28,848 nucleotides of DNA, taken from Gammaproteobacteria bacterium UBA1119 (GTDB lineage Bacteria; Pseudomonadota; Gammaproteobacteria; Pseudomonadales; Azotimanducaceae). Each line of letters begins with the position of its first letter. Position 1 is the first letter of the stretch. The stretch spans positions 1-28,848 of the forward strand of contig DCBA01000008.1 of the NCBI GenBank assembly GCA_002313255.1, written 5' to 3'. The translations under genes and the position numbers were made by a program. Positions 2,264-17,271 of this stretch are shown here, piece by piece. The notes below the pieces were generated by a model. It worked only from the letters and a program-made list of their open reading frames with translations, ran no database searches and was not told where the DNA came from.

Positions 2264-3044
2264 GTGACCAAAACATTCTTTTCATTACCGCAGATCAATG
2301 GCGCGCGGAATATTTATCGTGCTTGGGACACATGGTCCAAACACCGAACTTAGATGCTCTAGCAGCAGAAGGCGTGTTACTTACAAAACATTTCGCGAAT
2401 GCAGCACCCTGCGGGCCTTCCAGAGCCAGCATCCACACTGGAATATACCTGCAAAATCATCGTGTCAGCGCTAACGGGACACCACTCGAAACTCGGCACA
2501 CCAACTGAACCATTGAAATGCGTACGCAAGGCTTCGTCCCGACGCTTTTTGGTTATACGGATACGGCGTTGGATCCGTGTGAAAGCATATCTGCCGACCC
2601 AAGGCATAGGCCCTGGGACGGGGTTCTGCCAGGCATGGTGCCAATCGTTCAATTAGGCAACCTTTTGGAGTCTGGACCTCACTCCTAGGCTGAGCGGTTG
2701 CGGGGAAAAGGTTACCCCGTACCCATCGATTCAAATGAACTTTACACGACCAAGAAAGCGCAGCTTGAATGGGAGGATGGCTGACCAGCAGCGGCTCCCC
2801 TGGCAATTCCGGTCGAACTTCATGACACCTATTTCATGGTCGATCAAGTGATGAATTGCATTAAAGATCGACACGGCCGGTGCGTGCATCTCTCGTTGCT
2901 TCGACCCCACCCGCCGTGGATCGCACCCGACCCGTACAACTGCTTGTATGTCCCTAACGACCTCCCACCTTCTTAAGAGAGCTAACACTCTAGAGTCCGA
3001 ACGAGCCCAGCGTCCCTGCCTCACCCCGGCCCATCTTCCGCGAC
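2264..3044 (+). pseudogene. Sulfatase pseudogene, N-terminal half
   Basis: A single reading frame (with 2272 as a codon start) gives a clear sulfatase: NILFITADQWRAEYLSCLGH, TPNLDALAAEGV, the CxPSR active-site signature (CGPSR, Cys codon at 2410) that is matured to formylglycine, then FGYTDTALDP, GVLPGMVPIVQLG and LSLLRPHPPWIAPDPYN. The frame is broken by TGA at 2506, TAG at 2686, TGA at 2782 and TAA at 2974. The probable GTG start at 2264 would need one more A in the A-run near 2270. After 2976 the similarity resumes in the next frame (TLESERAQRP) and fades near 3044. Roughly 250 residues of a ~500-residue enzyme remain, and the C-terminal half is absent here. Only the decayed state and family are certain; the substrate is unknown. 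Confidence 0.85.
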
Positions 3045-3054
3045 GCTGAGCGGC

Positions 3055-3083
3055 TCTACATCTCGCCAGAGAAGCGGTATAAT
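3055..3083 (+). promoter_or_regulatory. Candidate sigma-70 promoter of the phosphonate operon
   Basis: A perfect TATAAT at 3078-3083 lies exactly 17 bases after TCTACA at 3055-3060, which matches four of six positions of TTGACA. It sits just past the last recognisable sulfatase similarity and about 190 bases before the first phosphonate gene, in the right direction. It was judged by eye, so a chance match is possible. Confidence 0.4.
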
Positions 3084-3275
3084 CCGTTTCGTTAGAACTC
3101 TCTGATCATAAGTGTCTGTCTTACACCGACCGGCTGATACCTAGACGTTCACGTCGTACCGCGCCCCAGCCATTCGTGACCAAACGCGGCTGAGTGCAAT
3201 CAAACGGACTCTTTGCGACTCGGCGGCATGGCAGAGTGATCTCCATGAGTAATGTGCTAATCGAACGGGAACGAG
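3084..3275 (+). other. Leader or junction region with no recognised gene
   Basis: About 190 bases between the candidate promoter and the first phosphonate gene. It holds one 17-codon ORF (3245-3298) that overlaps the next gene out of frame and is probably not real. A stretch near 3205-3245 reads NGLFATRRHGR in one frame, which is weakly reminiscent of the middle of sulfatases, but I do not rely on it. No riboswitch or terminator was recognised. Confidence 0.4.
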
Positions 3276-4769
3276 TTGATCAGACGAATATCCACTAGTC
3301 ACAATCTCAACGTTACTGATGAAACGCTTCAATCCCCCGGTGATGCCATTCGAACGGCCATCATACTCGCAGCCGGAATGGGTGTTCGCCTGAAGGAGCG
3401 GGGCAAGCTGACGCCTAAGGGCTGCATGTGTCTGGGGGAGAAAACGATTGTCGAGGAATCCGTTCTACGACTGCTGGCAGTGGGTATTGACCGGATTGTG
3501 ATTGTCACCGGATACCTCGCGGAACAATATGAGCCGTTACAGGACCGGTACCACCAAACGGTGCAGTTGGTCCACAACTCGCACTTTGCCGACTCGGGCA
3601 GCATGTACTCGCTGTATTGTGCCCGCGACTGCGTTGACGAAGCCTTCCTGCTATTGGAGTCTGACCTCGTTTATGAACGCCGGGCCCTCATCACATGCCT
3701 TGAACATCCGAGCGACAATGTCCTATTGCTGGCTGGCTTGTCGAAAACTAGTGATGAGTGCTTTGTGGAGACGCGCGATGGCTGCCTGGTCGCGATTGGA
3801 AAGAGCCGGGAAAGCTTGGGTGCTGAGGTACCGGGTGAGATGGTTGGCATCTGCAAGATTTCCCGATCGCTTTATTCAGTGATGCTAGAGGCGGCTGAGC
3901 AATGCTTCCGAACAACTCGCCATGTGGACTACGAGACTGATTGCTTGGTGGCGGTAGCGGGTACCGTATCTATAGCGTGCCCCTCGGTCGAGGATCTGGT
4001 GTGGTGCGAGATTGACGATGAAACGCATCTCGTCCGTGCTCGAAACGAGATTTATCCTGTCGTTCAGGTGGACGACAACCAGCAAATCAACCTCAGTAAG
4101 TTCAAGACGATCGGATTCTTCGAGGAGCGGGACCTGATCATTCGCCACATTCATGATTTCTTCGAATCGGTGAATGCACATCGGATACGTGCCTGCATCA
4201 TGTTCGGCACACTACTAGGGAAGTTGCGGCACAACGACTTCATTCCCTGGGATGATGATGTGGACATCGTCGTTTTTGATTTCGATGCGTTCCTGGCGCA
4301 ATGTGCGCCGGAACTCGAGCAAAAGGGATACGCCGTTGAGCCCGACGTCCGAGACGGCAAGAGAATGGGATGCCGCATCTTCCGTGAAGACAGTGCAATG
4401 GTGCCAGGTAAACCTCATATTCGGTTCCCTTGGATCGGAATCTGGGAGCACGAAGTCAACGAGGACGGACTGATTGTGCTCCCACCCGAAGATGTACGGT
4501 ACAAGCCGGAGGATTTTCTACCCCTCGGCCAAGTGGACCTGCTCGGCATCCCTGTCGGAGTGCCGCACAACCCGACGGAGATTCTAAACACCTATTTCGG
4601 GTCTGATGACTGGATGGAAGTTTGTCAACTCCCATACCGGGACCATCGAAAAGGCGGCAAGCTCACAGGCTTTCCCGACGACAAATTCAACCTGCAGACC
4701 GTGTTGAACTACCTCGCCGCTGAGCAGCTTCCCTCCCTTCGTGAGGTAACCAAGAATGATATCGAATGA
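3276..4769 (+). CDS. Bifunctional LicC/PntC-like cytidylyltransferase and LicD-family transferase
   Basis: A 497-residue fusion. Residues about 25-255 are a nucleotidyltransferase: LAAGMGVRL (31-39), TPK (46-48), SGSMYSLY (107-114), LLLESD (125-130) and WCEIDDE (243-249). From memory this set resembles the 2-aminoethylphosphonate cytidylyltransferase PntC more than choline-phosphate LicC. Residues about 290-490 are a LicD domain with GTLLGKLRHNDFIPWDDDVD (311-330) and its acidic metal site at 326-328. Predicted role: make CMP-AEP, then pass phosphono-AEP to a surface glycan. The only usable in-frame start before the LAAG motif is TTG at 3276, with a weak GGGA ribosome site. The stop overlaps the next gene by 14 bases. 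Phosphocholine as substrate cannot be excluded, but the PEP mutase context favours AEP. Confidence 0.85.
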   Translation: MIRRISTSHNLNVTDETLQSPGDAIRTAIILAAGMGVRLKERGKLTPKGCMCLGEKTIVEESVLRLLAVGIDRIVIVTGYLAEQYEPLQDRYHQTVQLVHNSHFADSGSMYSLYCARDCVDEAFLLLESDLVYERRALITCLEHPSDNVLLLAGLSKTSDECFVETRDGCLVAIGKSRESLGAEVPGEMVGICKISRSLYSVMLEAAEQCFRTTRHVDYETDCLVAVAGTVSIACPSVEDLVWCEIDDETHLVRARNEIYPVVQVDDNQQINLSKFKTIGFFEERDLIIRHIHDFFESVNAHRIRACIMFGTLLGKLRHNDFIPWDDDVDIVVFDFDAFLAQCAPELEQKGYAVEPDVRDGKRMGCRIFREDSAMVPGKPHIRFPWIGIWEHEVNEDGLIVLPPEDVRYKPEDFLPLGQVDLLGIPVGVPHNPTEILNTYFGSDDWMEVCQLPYRDHRKGGKLTGFPDDKFNLQTVLNYLAAEQLPSLREVTKNDIE

Positions 4770-5457
4770 TGTTGATCGGTGGAGGTACCCCAGGCTCGCA
4801 AAGCCGGAGTCGGACGGCCCCTTCTGCTATCACGTCCAAAGACGCATTTCCGGCTGGATTGCGGTTCGGCTTGCCCGCACCTTAACACCCAACGCGGCCA
4901 CCGCTCTCGACCTGATCTTCGGCATAGCTGCCGCCATGCTAGTGCTGCTGGATCACTGGTTGTGGTGCGCGATGCTGATTCAGGTGTTCGGGATCTTTTC
5001 GTGCGTTGACGGAGAGATCGCCCGAATTCGCGGCCGCCCGTCCGGGATCGGAGACTTCTTGGATACGCTGACCGATCGCGTCACCGAGCTACTTCTGGTG
5101 GGGGCGATCGCATTCTCTCTGGGCGCACGAGTGGAGTCGGGGAGCGCGCTCATTGCGGGCTTCGCCCTTCTGGGAGGCGTCTTCGTGCTGACGACCAGCT
5201 CGGAAAAATTCCGTTCGGTCTGGGGGATGGGGTATCCCAAGCGTCGGCTCGAGCGCTTGTTTGGCCTGTTCTGTTCGGGAAGCGATAGTCGTCTGCTTAT
5301 GTTGTCGATCGGGTTGGTCGTAAGCGAGGTCACCGGAGAAGGGATTTTTCTACTCTGGTTGATGTGGATGCTGGCTGCAGCGGCGTTCGTTAACTTCATC
5401 TTTCGAATCGTATTGGTTTACCGGCATTTCAGCACAGAAAATCCGACCGAATCATGA
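4756..5457 (+). CDS. CDP-alcohol phosphatidyltransferase family membrane enzyme
   Basis: A 233-residue integral membrane protein carrying the full family signature D-G-x2-A-R-x8-G-x3-D-x3-D: D85 G86, A89 R90, G99, D103, D107. The N-terminus has the usual RLARTLTPNAATALDLIFG run before the first membrane helix. Further hydrophobic segments lie at about 50-83, 112-135, 140-155, 175-190 and 195-220. The family transfers a phosphoalcohol from a CMP-activated donor to an alcohol in the membrane. Next to a CMP-AEP synthetase, the natural hypothesis is transfer of AEP from CMP-AEP onto diacylglycerol or another lipid alcohol, giving a phosphonolipid. It overlaps the upstream gene by 14 bases and the downstream gene by ATGA, so the genes are probably translationally coupled. 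The donor and acceptor are inferred. Confidence 0.88.
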   Translation: MISNDVDRWRYPRLAKPESDGPFCYHVQRRISGWIAVRLARTLTPNAATALDLIFGIAAAMLVLLDHWLWCAMLIQVFGIFSCVDGEIARIRGRPSGIGDFLDTLTDRVTELLLVGAIAFSLGARVESGSALIAGFALLGGVFVLTTSSEKFRSVWGMGYPKRRLERLFGLFCSGSDSRLLMLSIGLVVSEVTGEGIFLLWLMWMLAAAAFVNFIFRIVLVYRHFSTENPTES

Positions 5458-6173
5458 GTACCACTCAGCATATCGTGTCCGATGGAACAGATCTCGCCGA
5501 ATTCATAAACGATCGTGGCCCACATTGCCTGATTGTTGCCCGACACGGCGAAACCGACTGGAATGCCGAGAGAAGATTGCAGGGCCAGCAGGACACGTCG
5601 CTCAACAGCCGGGGGCGCTGTCAGGCCCTGAAAGTAGCCAGACTTCTGAAGAACCTGCCACTCTTACAAGTTCATTCCAGTATTCTGCGGCGCTGTCGGG
5701 AAACGGCACATCCCATCGCCGAGGCCAACATCGGCCAACCCAATGTGGTCTCCAGCGACTTGCTGAAGGAAATCGCACTGGGCGTTCTCGAGGGTGAGCT
5801 GAAGGATCAGCAATCCACGGCCGCGTTGACTCGGCATTACCAGAATTTCTCCAGAGACGAGGTTCACTACCGTCTACCGGACGGCGAGACGTTGCACGAC
5901 GCTGCCGTCCGTGTGCAGCGCTTCTTTGGCCAGAACGAGCACTTGACAGGTCCAGGCATTCAGCTGATTGTGGGACATAGGAATGTAAACAAGATGATCG
6001 TGAAGTACCTTCTTGAGTTGTCGTTTGAGGAGGGATTTCGTATCGAGCAGGAGCACCAGCGGCTCTACCTATATTTTAGAGCCTCTAACGAGCTGTGGTC
6101 CTGCTGGATGGGGGCTGCGACCGCCTGCCTTACCTTGGGGTACACGACCACAAAGAACGGCAGCTACGCATAA
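5454..6173 (+). CDS. Histidine phosphatase (phosphoglycerate mutase-like) family protein
   Basis: A 239-residue protein with the RHG signature ARHGETDWN (R30, H31) followed by LQGQQDTSLNSRGRCQA. It also has SSILRRCRETA with the second catalytic arginine, KEIALGVLEGE with the acidic proton donor, and VGHRN around residue 173 with the second histidine. All catalytic positions appear present, so it should be an active phosphomonoesterase or mutase. It overlaps the CDP-alcohol transferase gene by ATGA and ends 27 bases before PEP mutase, so it belongs to the operon. It may dephosphorylate a product or acceptor of the membrane transferase, much as CobC-type enzymes act near alcohol-transfer steps. 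The actual substrate is unknown. Confidence 0.88.
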   Translation: MSTTQHIVSDGTDLAEFINDRGPHCLIVARHGETDWNAERRLQGQQDTSLNSRGRCQALKVARLLKNLPLLQVHSSILRRCRETAHPIAEANIGQPNVVSSDLLKEIALGVLEGELKDQQSTAALTRHYQNFSRDEVHYRLPDGETLHDAAVRVQRFFGQNEHLTGPGIQLIVGHRNVNKMIVKYLLELSFEEGFRIEQEHQRLYLYFRASNELWSCWMGAATACLTLGYTTTKNGSYA

Positions 6174-6200
6174 TCACGAAAGAAGGAATTTGAGGATTAC

Positions 6201-7592
6201 ATGAAAACAGTCTATATCGCGATGAGTGCCGACCTAATCACTCCAGGGCATGTGAACATCGTCCAGGAGGCCAGGACGCTGGGAGAAGTGGTGATCGGTC
6301 TGCTGACCGACGACGCTATCGCCGGCTACCAGCGGCTGCCCTACATGGAATACGAGCAACGCAAGGTCGTTATGGAGAACATCGTCGGCGTCAAAGAAGT
6401 CGTGCCTCAGGAAACGCTCGACTACATACCGAACCTTAAGAAGATCAAACCCGACTACGTACTGCACCGCGATGACTGGAACACCGGTGTGCTCCGGGAA
6501 ACCCGCCAGCGCGTCATCGATACGCTTAAGCAGTGGGGTGGGGAACTTATCGAGCCGCAGTATTTAACCGGTGTCACGTCTACATCACTCAACCGGGCTA
6601 TTCGGGAAGTGGGAACCACGCCGCAGATGCGCATGGGTATGCTAAAGCGGATGCTGGAGGTCAGCCCGCTGATTCGCATTATCGAGGCGCATAGCGGTCT
6701 GACGGGGCTGATCGCCGAGACCGCTCGCGTCGAATGCGATAACGGGGTCCGGGAGTTTGACGGGATATGGATGAGCAGCCTCACCGATTCGGCCGTCAAG
6801 GCTAAGCCCGACATCGAGTACGTAGACATAACCTCGCGCATGAACACCGTCAGCGATATTCTCGAAACAACGACCAAACCCATCATCTACGACGGCGATA
6901 CTGGCGGCTTTGCCGAGCATTTCGTATTCATGGTCCGCACGCTGGAGCGACTCGGTGTCTCGGCCGTCATCATCGAAGATAAGATAGGGCTGAAGAAGAA
7001 CTCGCTCTTCGGTACCGACGTCGAACAAATACAGGATGACATCGAGCACTTCGCTCACAAGGTCACCTGCGGGAAGCATGCGCAAGTAACCGACGACTTT
7101 ATGATCATCGCTCGCATCGAGAGCCTGATTCTTAAAGCCGGCATGGACGATGCGTTGGCCCGCGCACAGGCTTACATCGACGCCGGTGTTGACGGCATCA
7201 TGATCCACAGCAAAGAGTCGACCGCCCACGAAGTGCTGGCGTTCTGCAAGGAATATGCGACGTTCGACGATCGCGTACCTCTGGTGACGGTGCCGTCAAC
7301 CTATTCCAACACGACCGAGGATGAACTGGCTGAAGCAGGTGTTCGTATCGTGATCTACGCCAACCAACTCTTGCGCAGCGCGTACCCGGCCATGGTCGAT
7401 GTCGCTAGGAGCATTCTTCGTAACGGCCGCGCCGCCGAAGCCGAGGACCGCTGCATGCCTATCAAAGACATCATCGGCCTGATTCCGGAAAGAGGGATGG
7501 AACCGTCACTGGCTCGAGGTCCCCGCCTCGCAGCGAAAGCGTCCACCAAGAGGGTGCAGGTCAACGACATAAGTACGCGTGATTCGTTGTAA
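6201..7592 (+). CDS. aepX: Phosphoenolpyruvate mutase with N-terminal cytidylyltransferase-like domain
   Basis: PEP mutase rearranges PEP to phosphonopyruvate, forming the C-P bond that starts nearly all phosphonate pathways. The 463-residue protein has a nucleotidyltransferase-fold domain at about 1-135 and the mutase (isocitrate lyase superfamily barrel) at about 155-440. Diagnostic mutase motifs are YDGDTGG (metal site, D231 and D233), [10 protein letters not shown] (259-268) and ARIESLI. In the N-terminal domain the usual HxGH is TPGH (14-17), losing the first histidine, while VTSTSLNR (125-132) resembles the second family motif. The ATG at 6201 follows GAAGGAATTTGAGGA, a good ribosome site. 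It overlaps the decarboxylase gene by 14 bases. The mutase assignment is firm; whether the N-terminal domain still catalyses anything is open. Confidence 0.95.
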
Positions 7593-8703
7593 GGATTTCA
7601 TCGACTGGCTGGCGGCGCTCGGCGTGGATTTCTACACGGGCGTGCCGGATTCGCTGCTCAAGCCGTTTTGCTTTTACCTGGCCGACCATACCGGTGACAA
7701 ACATGTTGTTGCGGCCAACGAAGGCGGCGCCGTGGCTCTGGCGTGTGGATACCATCTGGCCACGGGGAAAGTGCCACTTGTTTACTTGCAGAACTCCGGT
7801 CAGGGCAACACGATCAACCCGCTGCTTTCCCTGGCCGATCACGACGTCTACAGCATTCCGCTGCTGCTGCTGATTGGCTGGCGAGGCGAGCCCAGCACGA
7901 AAGACGAACCACAGCACGTCAAGCAGGGCAAGGTCACCGTCAGCTTGCTCGAAGCGATGGACATTCCCTGGCGTGTCCTGTCACCAGAGCCCGAAGCGGC
8001 TCGGCGTTGCGTGAATGAACTGCTGGCAATAGCGACGTCCGAAAGCCGACCGGTCGCCTTAACGATCCGCAAGGATACGTTCGAGCCTTACAAGTCGACA
8101 GCTCAGGCTGTGAGCGACTTCCAGCTAACTCGTGAGCAGGCCGTCGAAGTTGTCGTTGCCGCGTTGGGCACGACCGATGCGATCGTTTCCACGACGGGAA
8201 AATTATCGCGCGAACTTTACGAATACCGCGATCGCACTGGACAGGGCCACCAGCGGGAGTTCCTGACGGTCGGTTCAATGGGACACGCTTCGCAAATCGC
8301 CATGGGTATCGCCCTTGCCCAACCCGATCGAAGTGTGTATTGCCTGGACGGCGACGGAGCCATGTTGATGCACATGGGCGGCGCCGCGATCATCGGCGCG
8401 GCTGGTCTGGTGAACTTCAAGCATGTCATCTTCAACAATGGCGTGCACGATTCCGTTGGTGGCATGGCTACGGCGGGCCTACGAGTCTCATTCACGGAAA
8501 TCGTCAAGGCGTGCGGTTACACTGAAGCGTCGCGCGTCGAGCAATACAACGATCTGGCTGGGAAGGTAGCCGAGCTTCGCTCCGCGCGGGGGCCGGCCCT
8601 CCTGGAGATCATGGTCCAGAAGGGCGCACGCACCGACCTAGGCAGACCAAAAACCTCACCGATCGAAAACAAAACGGCCTTCACAGAGTTCCTGTCCCAC
8701 TGA
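7579..8703 (+). CDS. aepY: Phosphonopyruvate decarboxylase
   Basis: A thiamine diphosphate enzyme that decarboxylates phosphonopyruvate to phosphonoacetaldehyde, pulling the unfavourable PEP mutase reaction forward. The 374 residues match the family length. The N-terminal pyrimidine domain shows [13 protein letters not shown] and [19 protein letters not shown] with the conserved glutamate. The C-terminal domain shows the ThDP motif [11 protein letters not shown] (about 257) ending in [12 protein letters not shown]. The start is GTG at 7579 inside the end of the mutase gene, so the two are coupled. It ends 29 bases before the convergent transaminase gene with no visible terminator hairpin between them. 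Confidence 0.95.
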
Positions 8704-8732
8704 CGCAGAAAATGCATTGGGCTCCGACGTAA

Positions 8733-9875
8733 TCAGTTGCACGGAAGCTCGATGCCCATCTCGCTGGACGTCTCCCGGACTGCAGTAAGCAGGTCAAGAA
8801 TGTCAGACTCAAAAAGATGCCCGATATTCCCGATGCGGAAGCAATCGATATCCGACACTTTGCCAGGGTAGATCACAAATCCCTTGTCGTTCAACCGCTT
8901 GTAAAACTCGCCGAACTGGAAGAGCGGATCATTCGGATAGCAAAAAGCGGTGATGATCGTGCCCTGCAGTTCGGGCCGCAGGTACTCGGCAAACCCCATT
9001 TCGCGCATCCCGACAACAAGCACTTCGTAGTTAGCGCCGTAGCGAGCGACGCGACCCTCAACGCCGCCTTCCGCCTGCAATTCACAGAGCGCCTGCTCGA
9101 AAGCCAGGATCGCGTGCGTTGGCGGGGTGAATCGAAACTGGCCGTTCATTTCCAACCCCTGCCATTGCGCTAGCAGATCAAGACTCACCGAGCGGGCCCA
9201 ACCCTCCGTAGCGTGGAGCGAATCGCGACGGCAGATTGCAAACGAAAAGCCCGGCACGCCCTCGATGCACTTGTTGGCAGACGAAACCAGGAAATCGATT
9301 TCGCACCTTTCAAAGTCAAACAGGACAGCGCCGAAAGCGCTCATCGAGTCGACGAAATACACCTTCTCATGCTGCTTGACCACGCGACCAATTTCTTCAA
9401 TGGGATTGATGATGCCGGTCGTCGTCTCGCAGTGAACGACGGCGACGTTGGTGATCGCCTGGTCGTCGGTCAGTCTTCGGTCAACATCTGCGGGTACCGG
9501 TACCGTGTTCGCGTTGTATTCGAGGATTCCCGTGTCAATTTTAAGCACCTTGGCTATGTTGGCAATTCGATCACCATAGGCACCATTGACAATCACCAAC
9601 AGCTTTCCGCCCGGGGGGACCGTCGAACCAATGACTGACTCAAGGCCGAAAGTTCCACTGCCTTGCATGAGCACGGCTTCGTACCCATTGTCCTTCGACA
9701 CACCCGCAACAGCCAGCAGGTTTTCGCGAACGTGGTGGACTGCTTTGATGAAGGCGACGTCTCGCGATCCAAGATCTCGAAGCATTGCCTGCTTCACAGT
9801 TTGGCTGGTCGTAAGCGGACCAGGCGTAAACAACGTCTTATCGTTTTCGAAAGAAATTCGTATCGAGTTAGACAT
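8733..9875 (-). CDS. phnW: 2-aminoethylphosphonate-pyruvate transaminase
   Basis: A class V PLP aminotransferase of 380 residues interconverting phosphonoacetaldehyde and 2-aminoethylphosphonate. Visible motifs are LFTPGPLTTSQTVKQAM (15-31), QGSGTFGLES, VHCETTTGIINP, VDSMSAFG with the PLP-ring aspartate (D176), and SSANKCIEGVPGF with the Schiff-base lysine K202. PhnW is also known from catabolism, but beside PEP mutase and decarboxylase genes it most likely completes AEP synthesis (often called aepZ). It is on the opposite strand, converging on the decarboxylase, so it needs its own promoter. The ATG at 9875 has no Shine-Dalgarno but directly follows a 12-base palindrome. Confidence 0.95.
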   Translation of the reverse strand: MSNSIRISFENDKTLFTPGPLTTSQTVKQAMLRDLGSRDVAFIKAVHHVRENLLAVAGVSKDNGYEAVLMQGSGTFGLESVIGSTVPPGGKLLVIVNGAYGDRIANIAKVLKIDTGILEYNANTVPVPADVDRRLTDDQAITNVAVVHCETTTGIINPIEEIGRVVKQHEKVYFVDSMSAFGAVLFDFERCEIDFLVSSANKCIEGVPGFSFAICRRDSLHATEGWARSVSLDLLAQWQGLEMNGQFRFTPPTHAILAFEQALCELQAEGGVEGRVARYGANYEVLVVGMREMGFAEYLRPELQGTIITAFCYPNDPLFQFGEFYKRLNDKGFVIYPGKVSDIDCFRIGNIGHLFESDILDLLTAVRETSSEMGIELPCN

Positions 9876-9876
9876 A

Positions 9877-9888
9877 TTGAACGTTCAA
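9877..9888. repeat. 12-bp perfect palindrome at the AEP transaminase start
   Basis: TTGAACGTTCAA is a perfect palindrome one base upstream of the transaminase start codon, where a ribosome binding site would be expected. It could be an operator or merely a chance sequence. Confidence 0.4.
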
Positions 9889-10011
9889 ATCAACTCGTGA
9901 GTTTTCCCAATTCCATAAGTCCGAAGCTGCCATTTTCCACCTTGCGTTACAAGTGCACGCCTGGAATTGCCAACTAAGACGCTCCAAGAAACCACCTCCA
10001 ACGTGGCTCCA

Positions 10012-10210
10012 AAAAGCCGTTTCTGCGGAGTTGTCCTGCCCGACCTGATAAGATTTTACGACTTAAAACCCTTCCAATATCCTACCCGTCGCCCACGAGC
10101 GACCAGTCCAGTCCGCAACAGGCACGATGCCTTACCGGATGTTGCATGACGAACAGTCACTAACGCACGTGGCCATCACCGACCAACGTGTCGTCGATCG
10201 ATCCCGCGGT
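10012..10210 (+). pseudogene. Probable sulfatase pseudogene, C-terminal remnant
   Basis: This lies in the 362-base stretch between the transaminase and isocitrate lyase genes, which has no intact gene. On the plus strand one frame reads RFCGVVLPDLIRFYDLKPFQY (10018-10080), resembling the late sulfatase segment with LPPL-F-DL-DP-QF. A second frame reads YRMLHDEQSLTHV then AITDQRVVDRSRG (about 10132-10209), resembling the sulfatase C-terminal tail of the type SWRMRHDERTLTH. A frameshift between them is needed. It has the same strand and order as the N-terminal sulfatase relic at 2264-3044. The match is from memory of the family and is weaker than for the N-terminal half. The rest of the stretch (9889-10011) shows nothing I can name. 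Confidence 0.5.
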
Positions 10211-10237: not shown

Positions 10238-11839
10238 CTAAAATTGCGTCATGGTGTTGGCGGCGCCCCCAGCGAGTAACGCTTTCTCGCCAAGAAAGTA
10301 CTCCTTATGGTCATCCCCAATATTCGAACCAGCTAAATCCTGATGCTTAACGGATGCTAAGTCCCGTCGAATCTCTTGACGTTGAACACCTTTGACATAA
10401 GCGAGCATCCCCAGCTCACCGAAATAGCCTTCCGACAACATATCCACCCCGAGCGCTGTTTCGTGATACGTCGGTAAGGTAATGAGGTGATGGAAAATCC
10501 CAGCTTCGCGTGAGGCATCGCGTTGAAAATTTTGGATTAGACGATCCGCGTTCTGTGCGAGCTCAGTCTCGTCCATAGTCTCGTCCATCAAACCCCTCTC
10601 GAACACCGCGGGATCCGGATAAGCGGAAACATCTTTGCCCGCGCCTTTCCACTCTTCGTATACCTGTTCACGGAATTTCAAGGTCCAGTTAAAGGACGGG
10701 GAATTGTTGTAAACCAGTTTGGCTTCCGGACGAGTCTTGCGCACGGCTTCGACCATGGCACCGATCTGTTCGAGGTTGGGTCGCTCTGTTTCGATCCAAA
10801 GCAAGTCGGCCCCGTGTTCAAGCGCCGTGACACAATCGAGTATGACACGATCAAATCCGGTGTCCTCCTTAAACGCATAGAGGCCGTTATCCAACCGTTC
10901 TGGCTTGCACAACACCCCATTTTGGTAAATAGCCATGTCGCCTTCTTTGAGTTCGCCGAGATCGCTCACAGGCGACGCTTTTAGGAATTCGCAATATTTG
11001 TGACCGAGGTCGCCCGGTTCTTGCGAGACGGGTATCTTCTGCGTCAGTCCCGCGCCTAGCGAATCGGTACGTGCAACGATCACCCCGTTGTCGACGCCAA
11101 GCTCAAGAAACGCATAGCGAATCGCATGCAACTTAGACACGAAGTCTTCATGCGGAACCGTGACCTTGCCCGCTTGATGCCCGCACTGTTTGGCATCAGA
11201 CACCTGATTTTCAATCTGGATCGCGCAGGCTCCCGCTTCAATCATTTTCTTCGCTAGAAGATAGGTGGCCTCTTCATTCCCAAATCCCGCATCGATGTCC
11301 GCAATCATAGGCACGATGTGGGTTTCATAATTATCGATTTTGGAGATAGGTTCCGATACGTCGTGGCCCGCCGAACGCGCTTCATCGAGCGTCGCAAACA
11401 CGTGTTGAAGTTCGCGTGCATCGGCTTGGGTAAGAAACGTATAAATCTCTTCGATCAAGTCCGGAACCGAGGTCTTTTCATGCATGCTCTGATCCGGAAG
11501 CGGTCCAAATTGCGAACGCAGGCCAGCAACCATCCATCCGCTCAAGTAGATATACCTCTTGTTTAGCGAGCCCTGATGTTTTTTCACCGACATCATGGTC
11601 TGTTGTGCGACGAAACCATGCCAGGCACCTAGCGATTGTGTGTAATTGCCAGGGTCGGCGTCGTAATCTGCCATATCGCGACGCATGATGTCCGCGGTGT
11701 AACGAGCAATATCCAATCCCGTGCGAAAACGGTTTTGGTGGCGCATACGAACAACGTATTCCGGTTTGATCGCCCCCCATTCCTGTCCGCGTCCTAACAA
11801 CCCGCGACGTACTTCATCAATCTCTTCCATATACCCCAT
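10238..11839 (-). CDS. aceA: Isocitrate lyase
   Basis: Cleaves isocitrate to succinate and glyoxylate in the glyoxylate shunt, allowing growth on acetate, fatty acids and other C2 sources. From the ATG at 11839 the protein has 533 residues, the size of the longer Pseudomonas-type enzymes. The catalytic signature is KQCGH (217-221) within SDAKQCGHQAGKVTVPHEDF. DIDAGFGNEEATYLL carries the metal and substrate aspartates, VARTDSLGAGL and YNNSPSFNW follow, and the protein ends in NTMTQF. The frame continues upstream to a TTG at 11872, but the ATG at 11839 has AGAGGGA six bases upstream and starts MGYMEEIDEV, so I prefer it. An AT-rich inverted repeat lies about 70-90 bases upstream. No malate synthase gene is in the window. 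Confidence 0.95.
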   Translation of the reverse strand: MGYMEEIDEVRRGLLGRGQEWGAIKPEYVVRMRHQNRFRTGLDIARYTADIMRRDMADYDADPGNYTQSLGAWHGFVAQQTMMSVKKHQGSLNKRYIYLSGWMVAGLRSQFGPLPDQSMHEKTSVPDLIEEIYTFLTQADARELQHVFATLDEARSAGHDVSEPISKIDNYETHIVPMIADIDAGFGNEEATYLLAKKMIEAGACAIQIENQVSDAKQCGHQAGKVTVPHEDFVSKLHAIRYAFLELGVDNGVIVARTDSLGAGLTQKIPVSQEPGDLGHKYCEFLKASPVSDLGELKEGDMAIYQNGVLCKPERLDNGLYAFKEDTGFDRVILDCVTALEHGADLLWIETERPNLEQIGAMVEAVRKTRPEAKLVYNNSPSFNWTLKFREQVYEEWKGAGKDVSAYPDPAVFERGLMDETMDETELAQNADRLIQNFQRDASREAGIFHHLITLPTYHETALGVDMLSEGYFGELGMLAYVKGVQRQEIRRDLASVKHQDLAGSNIGDDHKEYFLGEKALLAGGAANTMTQF

Positions 11840-11906
11840 GGATCGTCCCTCTGAACCTCGAAAGGAGCGCAACTTTATACTATATATTATGGAACGTATG
11901 GATAGT

Positions 11907-12052: not shown

Positions 12053-13120
12053 TTACACCTTAACTTCTTTACCACCACGTTCTGCGGAACGGTATAGAGC
12101 ATCGAGCATGCGCTGCACCGCGAGACCGTCCTCGGCCGGCGCGAGCGTCGGCGTTTGATATAGGCAATGGTCAACAAAATTGTTCATTTTGCGCGAAAAC
12201 ATTCCCTGGAAGGACTCCTCGGCCAACCAACCGGGCGACGTGTTTACCATGTGTCCAGCCTGGTCTCGAAAAATTCTTGGCGGATCCCAGGTTGCCCCCC
12301 CCTTCTCGCCCATGATTTGAAAGTCCCAATCGTCCTTTTCGATGTGTGCAGCAAAGGCCGCTTCGACATGGACGACCGCACCGTCGTCAAATCGCACCCT
12401 ACCGACCGCAAGATCTTCGACCGTGTACGTTTTGTGGTCCCAGCCCTTCCAAGCCGATTCAACACGGTTCGATGGTTTATTTCCGATATAAGTGAACATG
12501 TCCGCTGAAGCAGTGACAGGCACCGGCGAACCCATCGTGTAGTGCGCCATTTCAAGGACATGCACGCCAATGTCGATGAGTGGCCCGCCACCTTGGAGCT
12601 CTTTTTGACCGAATACTCCCCAATTCGGAATCCCCCTTCGGCGCAAAGCTTTGACGCGCGTGTAGAGTATCTTCCCGAATTGACCATCATCCGCGGCCGC
12701 TCGGAGGAACTGAGTTCTAGGATTGAATCGATATTGAAATCCTATGACTAATTTCCGCCCCAAATCACGAGAGGCGGCCAGCATTCGTTCACCCGCCTTG
12801 GCCGAGTGGGCAAGCGGTTTTTCACAGAGAACGTCACAACCAGCTTTCATTGCATCTATCGAGGCCCGTTCGTGGAGTCGATTAGGCGTGCAAACCGACA
12901 CCGCATCCAAAGCTTCGACTCCCAGCATTTCCTTCCAGTCAGAATAAGCGTGCGGAATGTCAAACCGATCCTGATATCCGCGCATACTCGTCTCGGAAAT
13001 ATCGGCCATCGCGACCAGTTCGACGTCTTCGCGCCGACTGAGGTCTCGCAGATGCGTTCCCGCAATTGCCCCGGCTCCAATAAACCCATAGCGCAATTTC
13101 TTGTTCTTACGATTGGCCAA
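12053..13120 (-). CDS. Gfo/Idh/MocA family NAD(P)-dependent oxidoreductase
   Basis: A 355-residue dehydrogenase, typical in length. The Rossmann fold begins at residue 10 with RYGFIGAGAIAGTH (GxGxxxG, 15-21). CTPNRLHERASIDAMKAG and VLCEKPLA with the EKP motif (100-102) follow. The C-terminal sheet domain begins at about 125, with FQYRFNP and GGGPLIDIGVHVLEM carrying the catalytic-region aspartate and histidine. The family oxidises or reduces sugars, inositols and their derivatives; the substrate is unknown. The start is TTG at 13120 with an AGAGG about ten bases upstream, and no ATG fits because the Rossmann motif follows at once. It is divergent from the ABC importer, and an edge-truncated family member lies at 28405. 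Confidence 0.92.
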   Translation of the reverse strand: MANRKNKKLRYGFIGAGAIAGTHLRDLSRREDVELVAMADISETSMRGYQDRFDIPHAYSDWKEMLGVEALDAVSVCTPNRLHERASIDAMKAGCDVLCEKPLAHSAKAGERMLAASRDLGRKLVIGFQYRFNPRTQFLRAAADDGQFGKILYTRVKALRRRGIPNWGVFGQKELQGGGPLIDIGVHVLEMAHYTMGSPVPVTASADMFTYIGNKPSNRVESAWKGWDHKTYTVEDLAVGRVRFDDGAVVHVEAAFAAHIEKDDWDFQIMGEKGGATWDPPRIFRDQAGHMVNTSPGWLAEESFQGMFSRKMNNFVDHCLYQTPTLAPAEDGLAVQRMLDALYRSAERGGKEVKV

Positions 13121-13305
13121 CTTCCATACCTCTTCCCTAGGAAAGCTGTGAAGCTTATCACCGTGGATTCGTCGCCAAAGAAAGTCTTACGTATGCAGAC
13201 CAGCGTATGGCCTGAATCGACCGAGAACCCTATAGTGCGCGATTAATCAACCATTAACGCGTGGGCGTATCAGCACTACGTACGCGAATCCTATGGACGA
13301 CGAAC

Positions 13306-14343
13306 GTGACTAGCTACTTCATCAGACGATTGCTTCTCGTAATCCCAACATTCTTAGGCATAACCGTGCTGGTGTTTGCGGTCACCCGAGTCGTCCCGGG
13401 AGGGCCGATCGAGCGGGCCATGAACGAAGCGCTTTTGGCCCAAACAGATAGCGCAGTAATGATCGATATGAATAGCGTTGCCGGGGCAGCATTGTCCGAG
13501 GATCAACTTGCCGAATTGCGCGCGTACTACGGTTTCGATAAGCCCTGGCACGAGAGTTACGTCATTTGGCTGGGACGGGTAATGCAACTAGACCTTGGAA
13601 TGTCGACACGCTACACCGAGCCCGTCTGGGACATCATAAAAAACCGCTTTCCAATCTCGATTTTCTACGGAATCATGACCCTCATTCTTACCTACGCTGT
13701 ATGCATCCCGTTAGGCATCGCAAAAGCGCTTCGCCACAACAGCGTTTTCGACAACGCAACTTCAGCGGTCGTCTTTTTCGGGTACGCACTCCCCGGTTAC
13801 GTTGTTGCCATCGGATTGTTAACCGCGCTCGCTTCTGCTTGGGAATGGTTTCCACTGGGCGGGTTTGTAAGCGATAACTTCGACCAACTCTCGACCGCCG
13901 ACCAGGCCATCGACATTCTCTATCACGCAACATTACCGTTGATTGCCTACCTAGCCGGTAGTTTTGCCGTGATGACTTTCATGGTGAAAAACTCACTGAT
14001 GGACAATCTATCGTCCGACTACGTCCGCACGGCGATCGCGAAAGGCATGTCCTTCAAACGCGCGGTGTTTCGCCACGCACTCCGCAATAGCCTTATCCCG
14101 GTCGCCACCTCTTTTGGACAACTGATCTCTGTCATCATCAGCGGTTCGTTTCTGATCGAAAAGATCTTCAATATCGACGGGTTCGGTCTACTCGGATTTG
14201 AATCGCTCGTCGAAAGGGATTATCCGGTCGTCATGGGTATTTTGGTGATCTCATCCCTACTGTTCCTCGTCGGTAACATTCTTTCGGACATCTGCGTCGC
14301 AATCGTCGATCCCCGCGTGAAATTCGGCGAGAACGGTTCTTGA
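13306..14343 (+). CDS. ABC transporter permease, DppB/OppB/YejB type
   Basis: An inner-membrane permease of peptide-type ABC importers, 345 residues from the GTG at 13306 (MTSYFIRRLLLVIPTFLG). The family's N-terminal helix is followed by VVPGGPIERAMNEALL, the periplasmic segment. The core has about six membrane helices, with the EAA-like cytoplasmic loop YVRTAIAKGMSFKRAVFRHALRNSLIPVAT (contacts the ATPases) near residue 245. The frame continues upstream to 13261, but those residues do not resemble the family, so I start at the internal GTG. Its stop overlaps the next permease start (TTGA). The upstream 180 bases are shared with the divergent Gfo/Idh/MocA gene and should hold both promoters. 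Confidence 0.92.
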   Translation: MTSYFIRRLLLVIPTFLGITVLVFAVTRVVPGGPIERAMNEALLAQTDSAVMIDMNSVAGAALSEDQLAELRAYYGFDKPWHESYVIWLGRVMQLDLGMSTRYTEPVWDIIKNRFPISIFYGIMTLILTYAVCIPLGIAKALRHNSVFDNATSAVVFFGYALPGYVVAIGLLTALASAWEWFPLGGFVSDNFDQLSTADQAIDILYHATLPLIAYLAGSFAVMTFMVKNSLMDNLSSDYVRTAIAKGMSFKRAVFRHALRNSLIPVATSFGQLISVIISGSFLIEKIFNIDGFGLLGFESLVERDYPVVMGILVISSLLFLVGNILSDICVAIVDPRVKFGENGS

Positions 14344-15398
14344 AATTGAGACCACAACTAAACCCGCTCACGCAGCGGCAGCTAGCCCGATTTCGTAGTC
14401 TAAAACGGGGGTATTGGTCCGCAGTGATCTTGTTGATCACCATCGTGTTGAGTATTGGCGCGGAACTCTTGGTCAACAGCCGCGCACTAATCGTTAGTTA
14501 CGAGGGCAATTGGTTCTTTCCGACGTACGACAAATACCTCCCAGGTAGCACGTTTGGCCTTGGCTACGAATACGAAACAAATTTTCGCGAACTTAAAGTT
14601 TTTTTCGAACGGCAACCAAGTAACTCGAATTGGGTGATCATGCCGCTCGTGCCCTACAACGCCTTTGAGGTCGACTTACCTGCCGGCAGATACCCACCCA
14701 ATGCCCCGTCACTTTCAGAAAAGCACTATCTTGGAACAGACACTACCGGCCGAGATGTGCTTGCACGACTCGTCTATGGGTTCCGAATCGCGATTTCATT
14801 TTCTTTGATTCTGTTAATTTGTAACTACACGATTGGGGTGGCACTTGGCTGCGCTATGGGATTTTGGGGAGGTGCCTTTGACCTCTTCTTTCAGCGGATT
14901 ATCGAAGTTTGGTCCAACGTGCCCTTTCTCTACGTCATCATGATCATTGCTTCGGTCATCATCCCGAACTTCTGGACACTGATGATCGTTATGGTGATCT
15001 TTGGGTGGATGTCCATGACGTGGTACATGCGCACAAGCACATACAAAGAAAAGACTCGAGCTTACGTGCTTGCAGCGCGCGCACTCGGAGCGAGCAACGC
15101 TCGCGTGATATTCAGTCACATCCTTCCGAACTCGATCTCGATCATCGTCACGTTCGTGCCGTTCGCGATCGCCGGGGGCATCACCTCCCTCACCGCTCTC
15201 GACTACCTCGGTTTCGGTCTCCCGCCACCAACCCCCAGCTGGGGCGAATTGCTTTCGCAAGGTACAAGCCAATTAGAGTCTCCTTGGCTAGTGACGTCAG
15301 TCGTTGGTGCGATGGTGGCAATTCTTCTAATGGTGACTTACGTTGGAGAAGCGGTTCGCGAAGCTTTTGATCCAAAAAAATTCGCCTATTACGAGTAA
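14340..15398 (+). CDS. ABC transporter permease, YejE-like
   Basis: The second permease subunit, 352 residues, starting at TTG 14340 in a four-base overlap with the previous gene. After the first membrane helix there is a long periplasmic insert (about 45-125) with ALIVSYEGNWFFPTYDKYLP and a tyrosine-rich stretch, as in YejE of the microcin C/peptide importer rather than plain DppC. Then come HYLGTDTTGRDVLARLVYG, typical of the DppC/OppC/YejE branch, and the EAA loop RAYVLAARALGASNARVIFSHILPNS near residue 240. It is expected to form the channel with the 13306 product. The transported compound is probably a peptide or peptide-like molecule. Confidence 0.92.
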   Translation: MKLRPQLNPLTQRQLARFRSLKRGYWSAVILLITIVLSIGAELLVNSRALIVSYEGNWFFPTYDKYLPGSTFGLGYEYETNFRELKVFFERQPSNSNWVIMPLVPYNAFEVDLPAGRYPPNAPSLSEKHYLGTDTTGRDVLARLVYGFRIAISFSLILLICNYTIGVALGCAMGFWGGAFDLFFQRIIEVWSNVPFLYVIMIIASVIIPNFWTLMIVMVIFGWMSMTWYMRTSTYKEKTRAYVLAARALGASNARVIFSHILPNSISIIVTFVPFAIAGGITSLTALDYLGFGLPPPTPSWGELLSQGTSQLESPWLVTSVVGAMVAILLMVTYVGEAVREAFDPKKFAYYE

Positions 15399-15405
15399 TG
15401 AAACC

Positions 15406-17271
15406 ATGCATCTGCGTATGAACCCCATGGCCAGAGCCTTGATCGCTCTTCTCAGCGCGCTCGCGTTAATCGGTTGCGGGACCAACGATAAAGATGACCC
15501 ACGAGCTGAAACGCGACGTGATGTCGCGCAAGAAATTATTTCGTACCCAGTCGGCGGCGTTTTACCCAACGGACTCGCTTGGGAAACCAATAACGAGGAT
15601 CCCATTTTTGCCTCTGCCGACGCCAAGCCCGGGGGGGCTTTTCGTACCTATGTCCTCGCGTTCCCGCTCACGATCCGTCGAGTAGGACCCGACTCCAACG
15701 GCTCATTCGCGGGGTACACCCGTGCTGGATTTCTATCCCTCGTGAGTCTTCACCCCAATACAAGAAATTTCATCCCGACGTTAGCGACACATTGGGCTTT
15801 CGACGACGATGGAAAAACCGTTTATTACCGATTGCATCCAAACGCCAAGTGGTCCGACGGAACACCTATTACAGCCGACGATTACCTCTACACCCTCGAC
15901 TTCATGCGTTCGAAACACATCGTCGCTCCCTGGTACAACAACCATTACACAAACCAGATCGTCAATGTTGTGAAGTACGACGACTACACCATTTCCATCG
16001 AGGGCGGATCGGCAAAACCCCAAGACGAGATCCTCTTCGAGTACAGCATGGGACCCGTCCCCAAACACTTTCATGTTCTTGACCAAAATTGGGTCCGGGA
16101 AAACAACTGGAAGGTCGAACCCAACAATGGCCCATACCAGATCTCAAAAATAGAAAAGGGCAAGTACATCGAGTTCACGCGAAAGCATGACTGGTGGGGA
16201 AACGATCTCAAGTACTACAGGCACCGCTTTAATCCCGACCGGATACGCGTCCGGGTCATTCGGGATGTGAACATCGCATTACAACATTTCTTTAAAGGCG
16301 AGCTCGATACCTTCGGTGGTGTACTGCCGGAATTTTGGCACGATAAATTCAAAGGCAAAGATTTCGACAACGGCTACATACACAAGATCTGGTTTTACAC
16401 CGACAATCCGCAACCGGCCTCGGGCATGTGGTTGAACCAATCCAACTCCATCCTTTCCGATCGGAAAGTACGCTACGGGCTCGCACACGCCATGAACATC
16501 GACAAGGTGATCACTACGGTGCTCCGCGGCGACTATCGAAGGCAGCATACACATCACGAGGGTTATGGCGATTATTCCAACACTTCGATTCGTGCGCGCG
16601 CATTCGATTTGACTACAGCGAACACACTACTGGACGAGGCCGGATGGACGGAAAGAAACGACCTCGGAATTCGTACCAAGGGCCGGCAGACGTTGTCCTT
16701 ACGTGTCACCTACGGTCAATCGCATCACACACCACGTCTCGTGATTCTCCGGGAAGAAGCTAAAAAGGCCGGGATTGATTTGACACTGCAATTGCTCGAT
16801 TCCGCCGTATCTTTCAAACAGATGTTGGAAAAGAAACATCAGATTGCCTGGATGGGGTGGTCCGGTGGAGGTCTGTCACCACGTTATCGACAGTTTTATC
16901 ACTCCGACAATGCGAACAAACCGCAGAACAACAACCTCACCAACAACGCCGTACCCCAAATGGATACGCTGATTGACAAGTACCGTACAGCAACTGAAAA
17001 GACGGATCGCGTCGAGTTAGCCCATCAGATTGAACAGATGCTGCATGACACCGGCGCCGTGATTTTCACCTTTAAGGTTCCGTATACACGAGACGCGTAC
17101 TGGCGTTGGATGAAGCTTCCCGAATTTAGAGGTACACGCGTTGGAGACTTGTTCAATCCGATGGGTGGCCAGTTTTGGATCGACGAACTGGAGCGACAAA
17201 GCGTTCTTGACGATGCCGCGCCACAGACCGCCCCCGTGTCGATACTCGACACAACATACTTTTCGGAGTGA
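15406..17271 (+). CDS. Extracellular solute-binding protein family 5 (YejA-like lipoprotein)
   Basis: The periplasmic substrate receptor of the importer, 621 residues from the ATG at 15406. The N-terminus MNPMARALIALLSALALIGC is a lipoprotein signal with lipobox LIGC and the lipidated cysteine at 24. SBP family 5 motifs follow: PTLATHWAFDDDGKTVYYRL, WSDGTPITADDYLYTLDFM, GPYQISKIEKGKYIEFTRK and RYGLAHAMNIDKV. The aromatic-rich WWGNDLKYYRHRFN and FKGELDTF resemble YejA, which binds peptides and microcin C. The open frame extends upstream into the permease, but the signal peptide fixes the start. The gene lies between permease and ATPase genes rather than first, as in many dpp and yej operons. 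Confidence 0.92.
   Translation: MHLRMNPMARALIALLSALALIGCGTNDKDDPRAETRRDVAQEIISYPVGGVLPNGLAWETNNEDPIFASADAKPGGAFRTYVLAFPLTIRRVGPDSNGSFAGYTRAGFLSLVSLHPNTRNFIPTLATHWAFDDDGKTVYYRLHPNAKWSDGTPITADDYLYTLDFMRSKHIVAPWYNNHYTNQIVNVVKYDDYTISIEGGSAKPQDEILFEYSMGPVPKHFHVLDQNWVRENNWKVEPNNGPYQISKIEKGKYIEFTRKHDWWGNDLKYYRHRFNPDRIRVRVIRDVNIALQHFFKGELDTFGGVLPEFWHDKFKGKDFDNGYIHKIWFYTDNPQPASGMWLNQSNSILSDRKVRYGLAHAMNIDKVITTVLRGDYRRQHTHHEGYGDYSNTSIRARAFDLTTANTLLDEAGWTERNDLGIRTKGRQTLSLRVTYGQSHHTPRLVILREEAKKAGIDLTLQLLDSAVSFKQMLEKKHQIAWMGWSGGGLSPRYRQFYHSDNANKPQNNNLTNNAVPQMDTLIDKYRTATEKTDRVELAHQIEQMLHDTGAVIFTFKVPYTRDAYWRWMKLPEFRGTRVGDLFNPMGGQFWIDELERQSVLDDAAPQTAPVSILDTTYFSE

Follow-up and report, generated by a model that had tools for sequence, protein, structure and literature searches.

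Where does a bacterium deliver a phosphonate that it has activated with cytidine monophosphate (CMP)? The question is raised by a contig of 28,848 nucleotides from Gammaproteobacteria bacterium UBA1119 (DCBA01000008.1, assembly GCA_002313255.1; this whole stretch is called the window below). At positions 3276-9875 it carries genes for making and activating 2-aminoethylphosphonate (AEP), beside a LicD domain, a histidine phosphatase and a transferase with the fold of the cytidine diphosphate (CDP)-alcohol phosphotransferases. The answer that we favour, tentatively, is that these genes form a horizontally acquired cassette for AEP tailoring, which would pass AEP to a phosphorylated polar acceptor and then dephosphorylate the product, with LicD as a second outlet. 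It builds on an unusual transferase and on the genes that accompany it in eight loci. The recipients of AEP are probably small molecules or molecules of the cell surface. The genes of the cluster are as follows.

3276..4769, + strand: PntC-like AEP cytidylyltransferase (residues ~27-262) fused to LicD (~263-497); start TTG, true start uncertain
4756..5457, + strand: DIPPS-like protein of the CDP-alcohol-phosphotransferase fold, with Ser82 at position D1; overlaps the PntC-LicD gene
5454..6173, + strand: histidine phosphatase (branch 1) with RHGET and the later conserved residues; overlaps the transferase gene
6201..7592, + strand: phosphoenolpyruvate (PEP) mutase (PepM; residues ~148-430) with an N-terminal Fom1-like cytidylyltransferase domain, TPGH for HxGH
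7579..8703, + strand: phosphonopyruvate decarboxylase (Ppd; TIGR03297)
8733..9875, - strand: 2-aminoethylphosphonate transaminase, convergent (PRK13479, TIGR02326, TIGR03301)

All the genes named in a preliminary description of the locus are present as open reading frames within 3276-9875. That description had overlooked the histidine phosphatase (5454-6173) and the PF01467 domain fused to the PEP mutase, and where it saw a single operon there are instead five close plus-strand genes, overlapping or with 27 bases between neighbours, faced by the minus-strand transaminase. In five loci of other genomes the same order of genes recurs, complete or as far as the contig reaches, at about 59-85% protein identity, which argues that the cluster is not a chance assembly.

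Predicted synthesis and activation of AEP

The enzymes expected to make AEP all scored above the cut-offs of their profiles: PEP mutase (TIGR02320, 389.7 bits, cut-off 319.55), which also has the family's EDKxxxxxNS motif, Ppd (TIGR03297, 498.9 bits, cut-off 312.5) and the transaminase (PRK13479, 484.7 bits, cut-off 296). The product of the first gene of the cluster matches NTP_transf_3 (45 bits, cut-off 27), and the nearest solved structure to its PntC domain (CYTIDYLYLTRANSFERASE) is Tde-PntC 6PD1 (E 6.6e-45), with phosphocholine cytidylyltransferase behind (E 6.2e-15). Residues R15, K25 and K153 of Tde-PntC and the pocket residues E104 and E196 have been linked to catalysis or the AEP pocket (PMC6697681). 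Their equivalents, numbered from the alignment with the PDB match, are kept in the window and in seven other loci; the seven residues compared are identical in all eight loci, which have Glu at both positions that hold Asp in LicC. The pocket Glu is informative, not universal, to judge from the PntC-like enzymes of Roseomonas and Mycetohabitans, which have Asp at one of the two positions. The residues thus match those of the AEP-specific Treponema enzyme, and formation of CMP-AEP, already suspected in the preliminary description, is predicted.

A second possible activator is the domain fused to the PEP mutase (PF01467, 37.9 bits, cut-off 21), which is nearest to the Fom1 domain that activates hydroxyethylphosphonate. 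HxGH is a nucleotidyltransferase motif; it reads HPGH in the Fom1 chain 5x3d and TPGH in the window, and its first His is Thr in 120 of the 120 best-listed homologues (114 by regular expression, 6 by eye; 79-97% identical). Nucleotidyltransferase fusions to PEP mutase are described as common (PMC6697681). We put this domain second as main activator, given its altered HxGH and the lack of a match to it in the PEP mutases of two related loci (L023 and L024, below). One source names protein P0208, which has the same Thr, a 2-hydroxyethylphosphonate cytidylyltransferase (window domain 6201-6640).

A transferase with a substituted signature

The transferase matches CDP-OH_P_transf (PF01066, 35.9 bits, cut-off 22). 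The full signature of CDP-alcohol phosphotransferases is D1xxD2GxxAR...GxxxD3xxxD4 (PMC10156783), and in the window D1 is Ser (Ser82). Because of this substitution, sequence assigns the protein to the PF01066 superfamily without making it a canonical member. Ser is also found at D1 in the seven other loci and in 142 of the 142 top-listed family proteins (139 by regular expression, 3 by eye, the window's included), which are ~73-100% identical to the window's, the distant family being sampled via L010-L014 and L023/L024. All 142 have Asp three residues before D3 (Asp100 in the window), and D2, D3, D4 and Asp100 are invariant across the aligned members. D1 is Asp in every control read: 29/29 PgsA-like proteins (by motif), the four paralogues in the window's own genome, the 18 divergent controls of 20 that the regular expression matched, and the enzymes of four other clusters, from Roseomonas, Mycetohabitans, Mesorhizobium and Rahnella (two read by regular expression, two from alignment). 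We rejected the idea that enzymes using CMP-phosphonate donors have generally adapted by taking Ser at D1, since the first three of these clusters contain PEP mutase and yet have Asp there; the Rahnella cluster has a PntC-like gene, and its displayed stretch lacks PEP mutase. On that Rahnella plasmid (L042, 8992-12180), a fusion of a PntC-like domain and an aminotransferase is followed by a CDP-alcohol transferase of a different kind and then a HAD hydrolase, so that transferase and phosphatase are paired here too.

The residue after D4 is reported to be critical, and to be retained in enzymes that use inositol phosphate (PMC6506517). It is Arg in the window, in 4mnd and in AF2299; Lys in the 29 PgsA-like controls (by motif) and in two of the four own-genome paralogues; and neither in the 18 matched divergent controls, whose substrates are unassigned. 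The best NCBIfam matches, all under cut-off, were IPCT/DIPPS (87 bits), archaetidylinositol phosphate synthase (52) and PIP synthase (48); against NF041135, an IPCT/DIPPS model with a whole-protein cut-off of 580 bits, two separate window proteins scored 64.7 and 87.2 bits. PDB sequence searches placed 4mnd first and AF2299 second, VIA-align placed the two level at the top, followed by PIP synthases, with choline phosphotransferases and PGP synthase lower, and Foldseek placed AF2299 first, MtPgsA1 fourth and 4mnd fifth. The class II enzymes CEPT1/CHPT1 were listed in sequence and fold comparisons, under DIPPS, AF2299 and PIPS. Together, the NCBIfam matches, the PDB and fold rankings, Arg after D4 and Ser at D1 distinguish this protein from the usual enzymes of phospholipid or phosphonolipid synthesis.

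A core shared by eight loci

We compared the window with L010 (Acidiferrobacteraceae), L011, L012 and L013 (Verrucomicrobiales), L014 (Proteobacteria), and L023 and L024, which belong to genomes G036 and G008 of the window's family. Most of these loci are metagenome-assembled, and their wide taxonomic spread could include misbinned contigs. In 8/8 loci the transferase gene is flanked by PntC and the histidine phosphatase, with LicD lying between PntC and the transferase in L010, the phosphatase on the opposite strand in L023 and L024, and the phosphatase broken by the contig end in L012. PEP mutase lies within the same stretch in six of the eight; in genomes G454 and G455 it is on a separate contig, next to Ppd and a methyltransferase gene. 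At the level of genomes, PEP mutase accompanies the transferase in the window and in the seven others, so that the ordinary phospholipid enzyme occurring without phosphonate genes, which the preliminary description had held up as a possible objection, was not encountered.

The window's phosphatase matches His_Phos_1 (PF00300, 133 bits) and scores below the cut-off of the CobC alpha-ribazole phosphatase model (TIGR03162, 102.3 bits, cut-off 162.9), so that only its superfamily is assigned. Second, partial histidine phosphatase matches are present at the far end of the cluster in L010 (7879-8313, reaching near the contig end) and L011 (15167-15552, in two pieces).

LicD is fused to PntC in five loci and separate in two (L010, L023), and no match to it was found in G008, a genome 96% complete. 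It is thus usual (7/8 genomes), not essential. Since G008 has no LicD match, nothing encoded nearby in that genome other than the transferase would evidently use CMP-AEP. The window's LicD domain scores 46.1 bits with PF04991 (cut-off 22.6) over profile positions 2-49 of 227 only. The DDD motif is important in LicD, and the domain has this core, reading DFIPWDDD, in keeping with membership of the family. The PntC of L023 and L024 forms a fusion with the transaminase, an arrangement shared with Treponema Tde1415. The part of the neighbouring open reading frames that was scanned contained no glycosyltransferase. In L023 a polyamine/AEP-type ABC transporter (12928-17201, - strand; ATPase 344 bits to PhnT2, below the cut-off of 457.7) adjoins the phosphatase gene, and L024 has a permease similar to that of this transporter upstream of PEP mutase.

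An island within a hydrolase gene

Comparison with congeners defines the limits of the acquired DNA:

about 3023..10106, no strand assigned: acquired island of 7.1 kb; four congeners carry 646-651 bp of a gene like PehA or phosphonate monoester hydrolase (PMH) in its place
2269..3022, + strand: 5' remnant of the hydrolase gene, with no plus-strand open reading frame of at least 90 amino acids
10106..10204, + strand: remnant of the 3' end of the hydrolase gene

In congeners G005, G003, G006 and G002 the DNA matches the window until 3017-3022 and resumes from 10107. The uninterrupted hydrolase (504 amino acids in G005; L099, 9990-11504, - strand) belongs to the sulfatase superfamily and is nearest to PehA and phosphonate monoester hydrolases; it scored 531 bits with NF045661 (cut-off 900) and hence is not named PehA. 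Its best matches among PDB chains are 4uph and 2vqr, which carry the names sulfatase or multifunctional phosphatase, and 2w8s, which is entered as a phosphonate monoester hydrolase. An island for AEP synthesis therefore stands in place of part of a phosphonate-ester-type hydrolase gene. This landing site may be chance, as it was seen once. The island ends show no convincing terminal repeats. Two congeners were uninformative on the empty site, G004 aligning over the isocitrate lyase gene only and G001 having no isocitrate lyase match. That lyase (10238-11872), which has a weak PEP_mutase Pfam match, was rejected as a member of the cluster: it scores 918 bits with PRK06498 and is found in five of six congeners, in four of them alongside the empty site. 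On the other side, a PhyH-family dioxygenase (611-1381, - strand) matches a methylphosphonate hydroxylase model weakly (NF052437, 24 bits, cut-off 500), and this stretch aligns in two congeners too.

The transferase occurs sporadically among genomes: 0/6 congeners, 3/58 relatives, 4/206 genomes of the family and 1/398 drawn from the phylum (the window's own counted each time), and 2/288 genomes of the order and 1/387 of the phylum of G453 (G453 counted). The protein database listed 392 relatives, many on metagenome contigs. A search of plasmids with the transferase gave no match; PntC-LicD matched 39 plasmid records, of which six were examined, and two of these (Priestia and Pseudohalocynthiibacter) have no PEP mutase and no CDP-alcohol transferase among their listed genes.

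A possible pathway and its alternatives

From the genes, the co-occurrence of the core, the motif states and the insertion we infer every substrate of the pathway and the order of its steps. PepM, Ppd and the transaminase would make AEP and the PntC domain would convert it to CMP-AEP. CMP-AEP would then serve the DIPPS-like transferase as donor of the AEP group, and a hydroxyl of a polar, phosphorylated acceptor would receive it, giving AEP-X-phosphate, with glycerol-3-phosphate or a sugar or polyol phosphate as candidate acceptors. The phosphate of such an acceptor would remain on the product. In every locus a phosphatase with conserved residues adjoins the transferase; it could convert AEP-X-phosphate to the phosphonate ester AEP-X. 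LicD, fused to PntC, may be a second user of CMP-AEP that is not essential, perhaps with a glycan or glycolipid as its target. PGP synthase and its phosphatase follow the same logic of transfer and then dephosphorylation. So do mannosyl-3-phosphoglycerate synthase and its phosphatase (PMC1224877), and membrane CDP-alcohol enzymes with solely soluble substrates and products exist, such as AfDIPP synthase (PMC4634129). Inositol phosphate was put second as acceptor: its synthase (PF07994) was found in none of the eight genomes, some of them incomplete (five of 14 control genomes match, three above cut-off), so it is probably not made here, and uptake could supply it.

Several points weigh against this pathway. 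Ser at D1 could weaken catalysis, the acceptor can be named as a set of candidates only, and the phosphatase superfamily is broad. In G454 and G455 the core and PEP mutase lie on separate contigs. The fold model of the transferase is of middling confidence (mean predicted local distance difference test score, pLDDT, 67), and the comparison with the phosphate-binding Arg residues of MtPIPS leaves out the counterparts of R155 and R195. Foldseek placed AF2299 and a PIP synthase above 4mnd, and PIP synthases are near in VIA-align; given this closeness a lipid product may be made.

The first alternative, which we regard as unlikely, is a phosphonolipid made in the manner of the Kennedy pathway: with CMP-AEP as donor, the transferase would place AEP on diacylglycerol or some other lipid alcohol, and LicD would serve a glycan. 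The preliminary description had proposed these two outlets and knew of no pathway with such a gene set. Clusters with PepM, an NTP transferase and a CDP-alcohol phosphatidyltransferase are in fact in print, from Nostoc and Burkholderia, as phosphonolipid clusters (PMC5987646, after Yu et al. 2013), and CDP-alcohol transferases accompany PntC-like enzymes and PEP mutase on plasmids of Roseomonas (beside hopanoid genes) and Mycetohabitans. The fold is that of integral-membrane enzymes, and Asp100, three residues before D3, is at the place of CEPT1 Glu151, a possible cytidine contact (PMC10156783). However, the window's transferase shares 32-38% identity with the Mycetohabitans and Roseomonas enzymes over just 77-90 residues, and these have Asp at D1 and neither Arg nor Lys after D4. 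It groups with IPCT-DIPPS, AF2299 and inositol-phosphate enzymes, nearer in sequence and fold than CEPT1/CHPT1, and a phosphonolipid leaves unexplained the adjoining phosphatase, which suggests a phosphorylated intermediate. The idea of two outlets, with the two transferases adjacent, thus holds in most of the genomes examined; its phosphonolipid half is less supported, and an AEP-polyol ester seems the likelier product.

Quite unlikely, in our estimate, is a linear decoration of lipid, in which a class I transferase joins CDP-diacylglycerol and a polyol phosphate, the phosphatase bares the polyol and PntC-LicD adds AEP. The nearness of PIP synthases in fold, an Arg after D4 suited to a phosphorylated acceptor, and LicD relatives that include a lipid cholinephosphotransferase model (NF045866, 51.3 bits, cut-off 225) would fit this route, but G008 has PntC, transferase and phosphatase with no LicD match, and the lack of PF07994 makes inositol phosphate an unlikely polyol phosphate. 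Least probable is that LicD is the sole working end-transferase and the D1-less protein has lost transfer for another role (membrane anchor, carrier, export): Ser at D1 throughout the family proteins read, against Asp in the controls, and the near loss of activity when signature Asp residues of CEPT1 (D136, D154) are changed to Ala (PMC10156783) favour this, yet invariant D2, D3, D4 and Asp100 argue for a retained catalytic site, and LicD was not found in G008.

Transfer to a phosphorylated acceptor followed by dephosphorylation can be taken further, in a proposal that we put forward as a speculation with the balance against it: the island would have spread between phyla and would encode a phosphonate analogue of the archaeal pathways to inositol/glycerol phosphodiester solutes. 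Its product, an ester of AEP and a polyol that is soluble in water (glyceryl-AEP, for instance), would be made by the Ser-D1 subfamily (Asp100 perhaps offsetting the change), and the place of the island here inside a gene like phosphonate monoester hydrolase would have removed an enzyme that might degrade such esters.

Relation to known systems

The cassette is a variant of known phosphonate-tailoring pathways, and CDP-alcohol transferases in PEP-mutase clusters have already been published as phosphonolipid proposals. The PntC pathway (PMC6697681) has PEP mutase, AEP genes, PntC making CMP-AEP and LicD-like genes mentioned nearby; here PntC and LicD are fused and the core includes a phosphatase, and the terms CDP-alcohol and phosphatidyltransferase are absent from the main text of that paper. 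The phosphonolipid-type clusters share PepM, Ppd, transaminase, NTP transferase and CDP-alcohol transferase with the window; those on plasmids differ in having a gene with a lysylphosphatidylglycerol-synthase domain, and the gene tables of the stretches displayed, which are incomplete, name neither LicD nor a histidine phosphatase. IPCT-DIPPS of Archaeoglobus (4MND; di-inositol-phosphate solute pathway) likewise combines a cytidylyltransferase with a DIPPS-like transferase that has Arg after D4, and it is the window transferase's best NCBIfam match and, tied with AF2299, its best in VIA-align; the window differs in its two separate proteins, far under the NF041135 cut-off, its PntC-type donor enzyme, Ser at D1 and the lack of an inositol-phosphate synthase match. 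The pgb cluster of Pantoea ananatis (PMC9933511), compared by its annotations, has PepM, Ppd, PhnW, IPC transferase/DIPP synthase and CDP-alcohol phosphatidyltransferase; its table includes several more genes but neither LicD nor a histidine phosphatase. In the literature searched, whose coverage is partial and makes the negative weak, no paper joined phosphonate, LicD and CDP-alcohol, and only Rice et al. 2019 (PMC6697681) joined PntC, LicD and phosphonate.

Phosphonates accumulate in seawater and feed microbes there (PMC8931226), and the steps of phosphonyl tailoring are termed enigmatic in the abstract of Rice et al. 2019 (PMC6697681). The targets of CMP-activated phosphonates in bacteria are largely unknown, and the cassette would offer a compact system of three proteins (PntC, transferase and phosphatase) for one such step. 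The conserved change at its active site, Ser at D1, bears on how far the signature of the CDP-alcohol transferases is needed.

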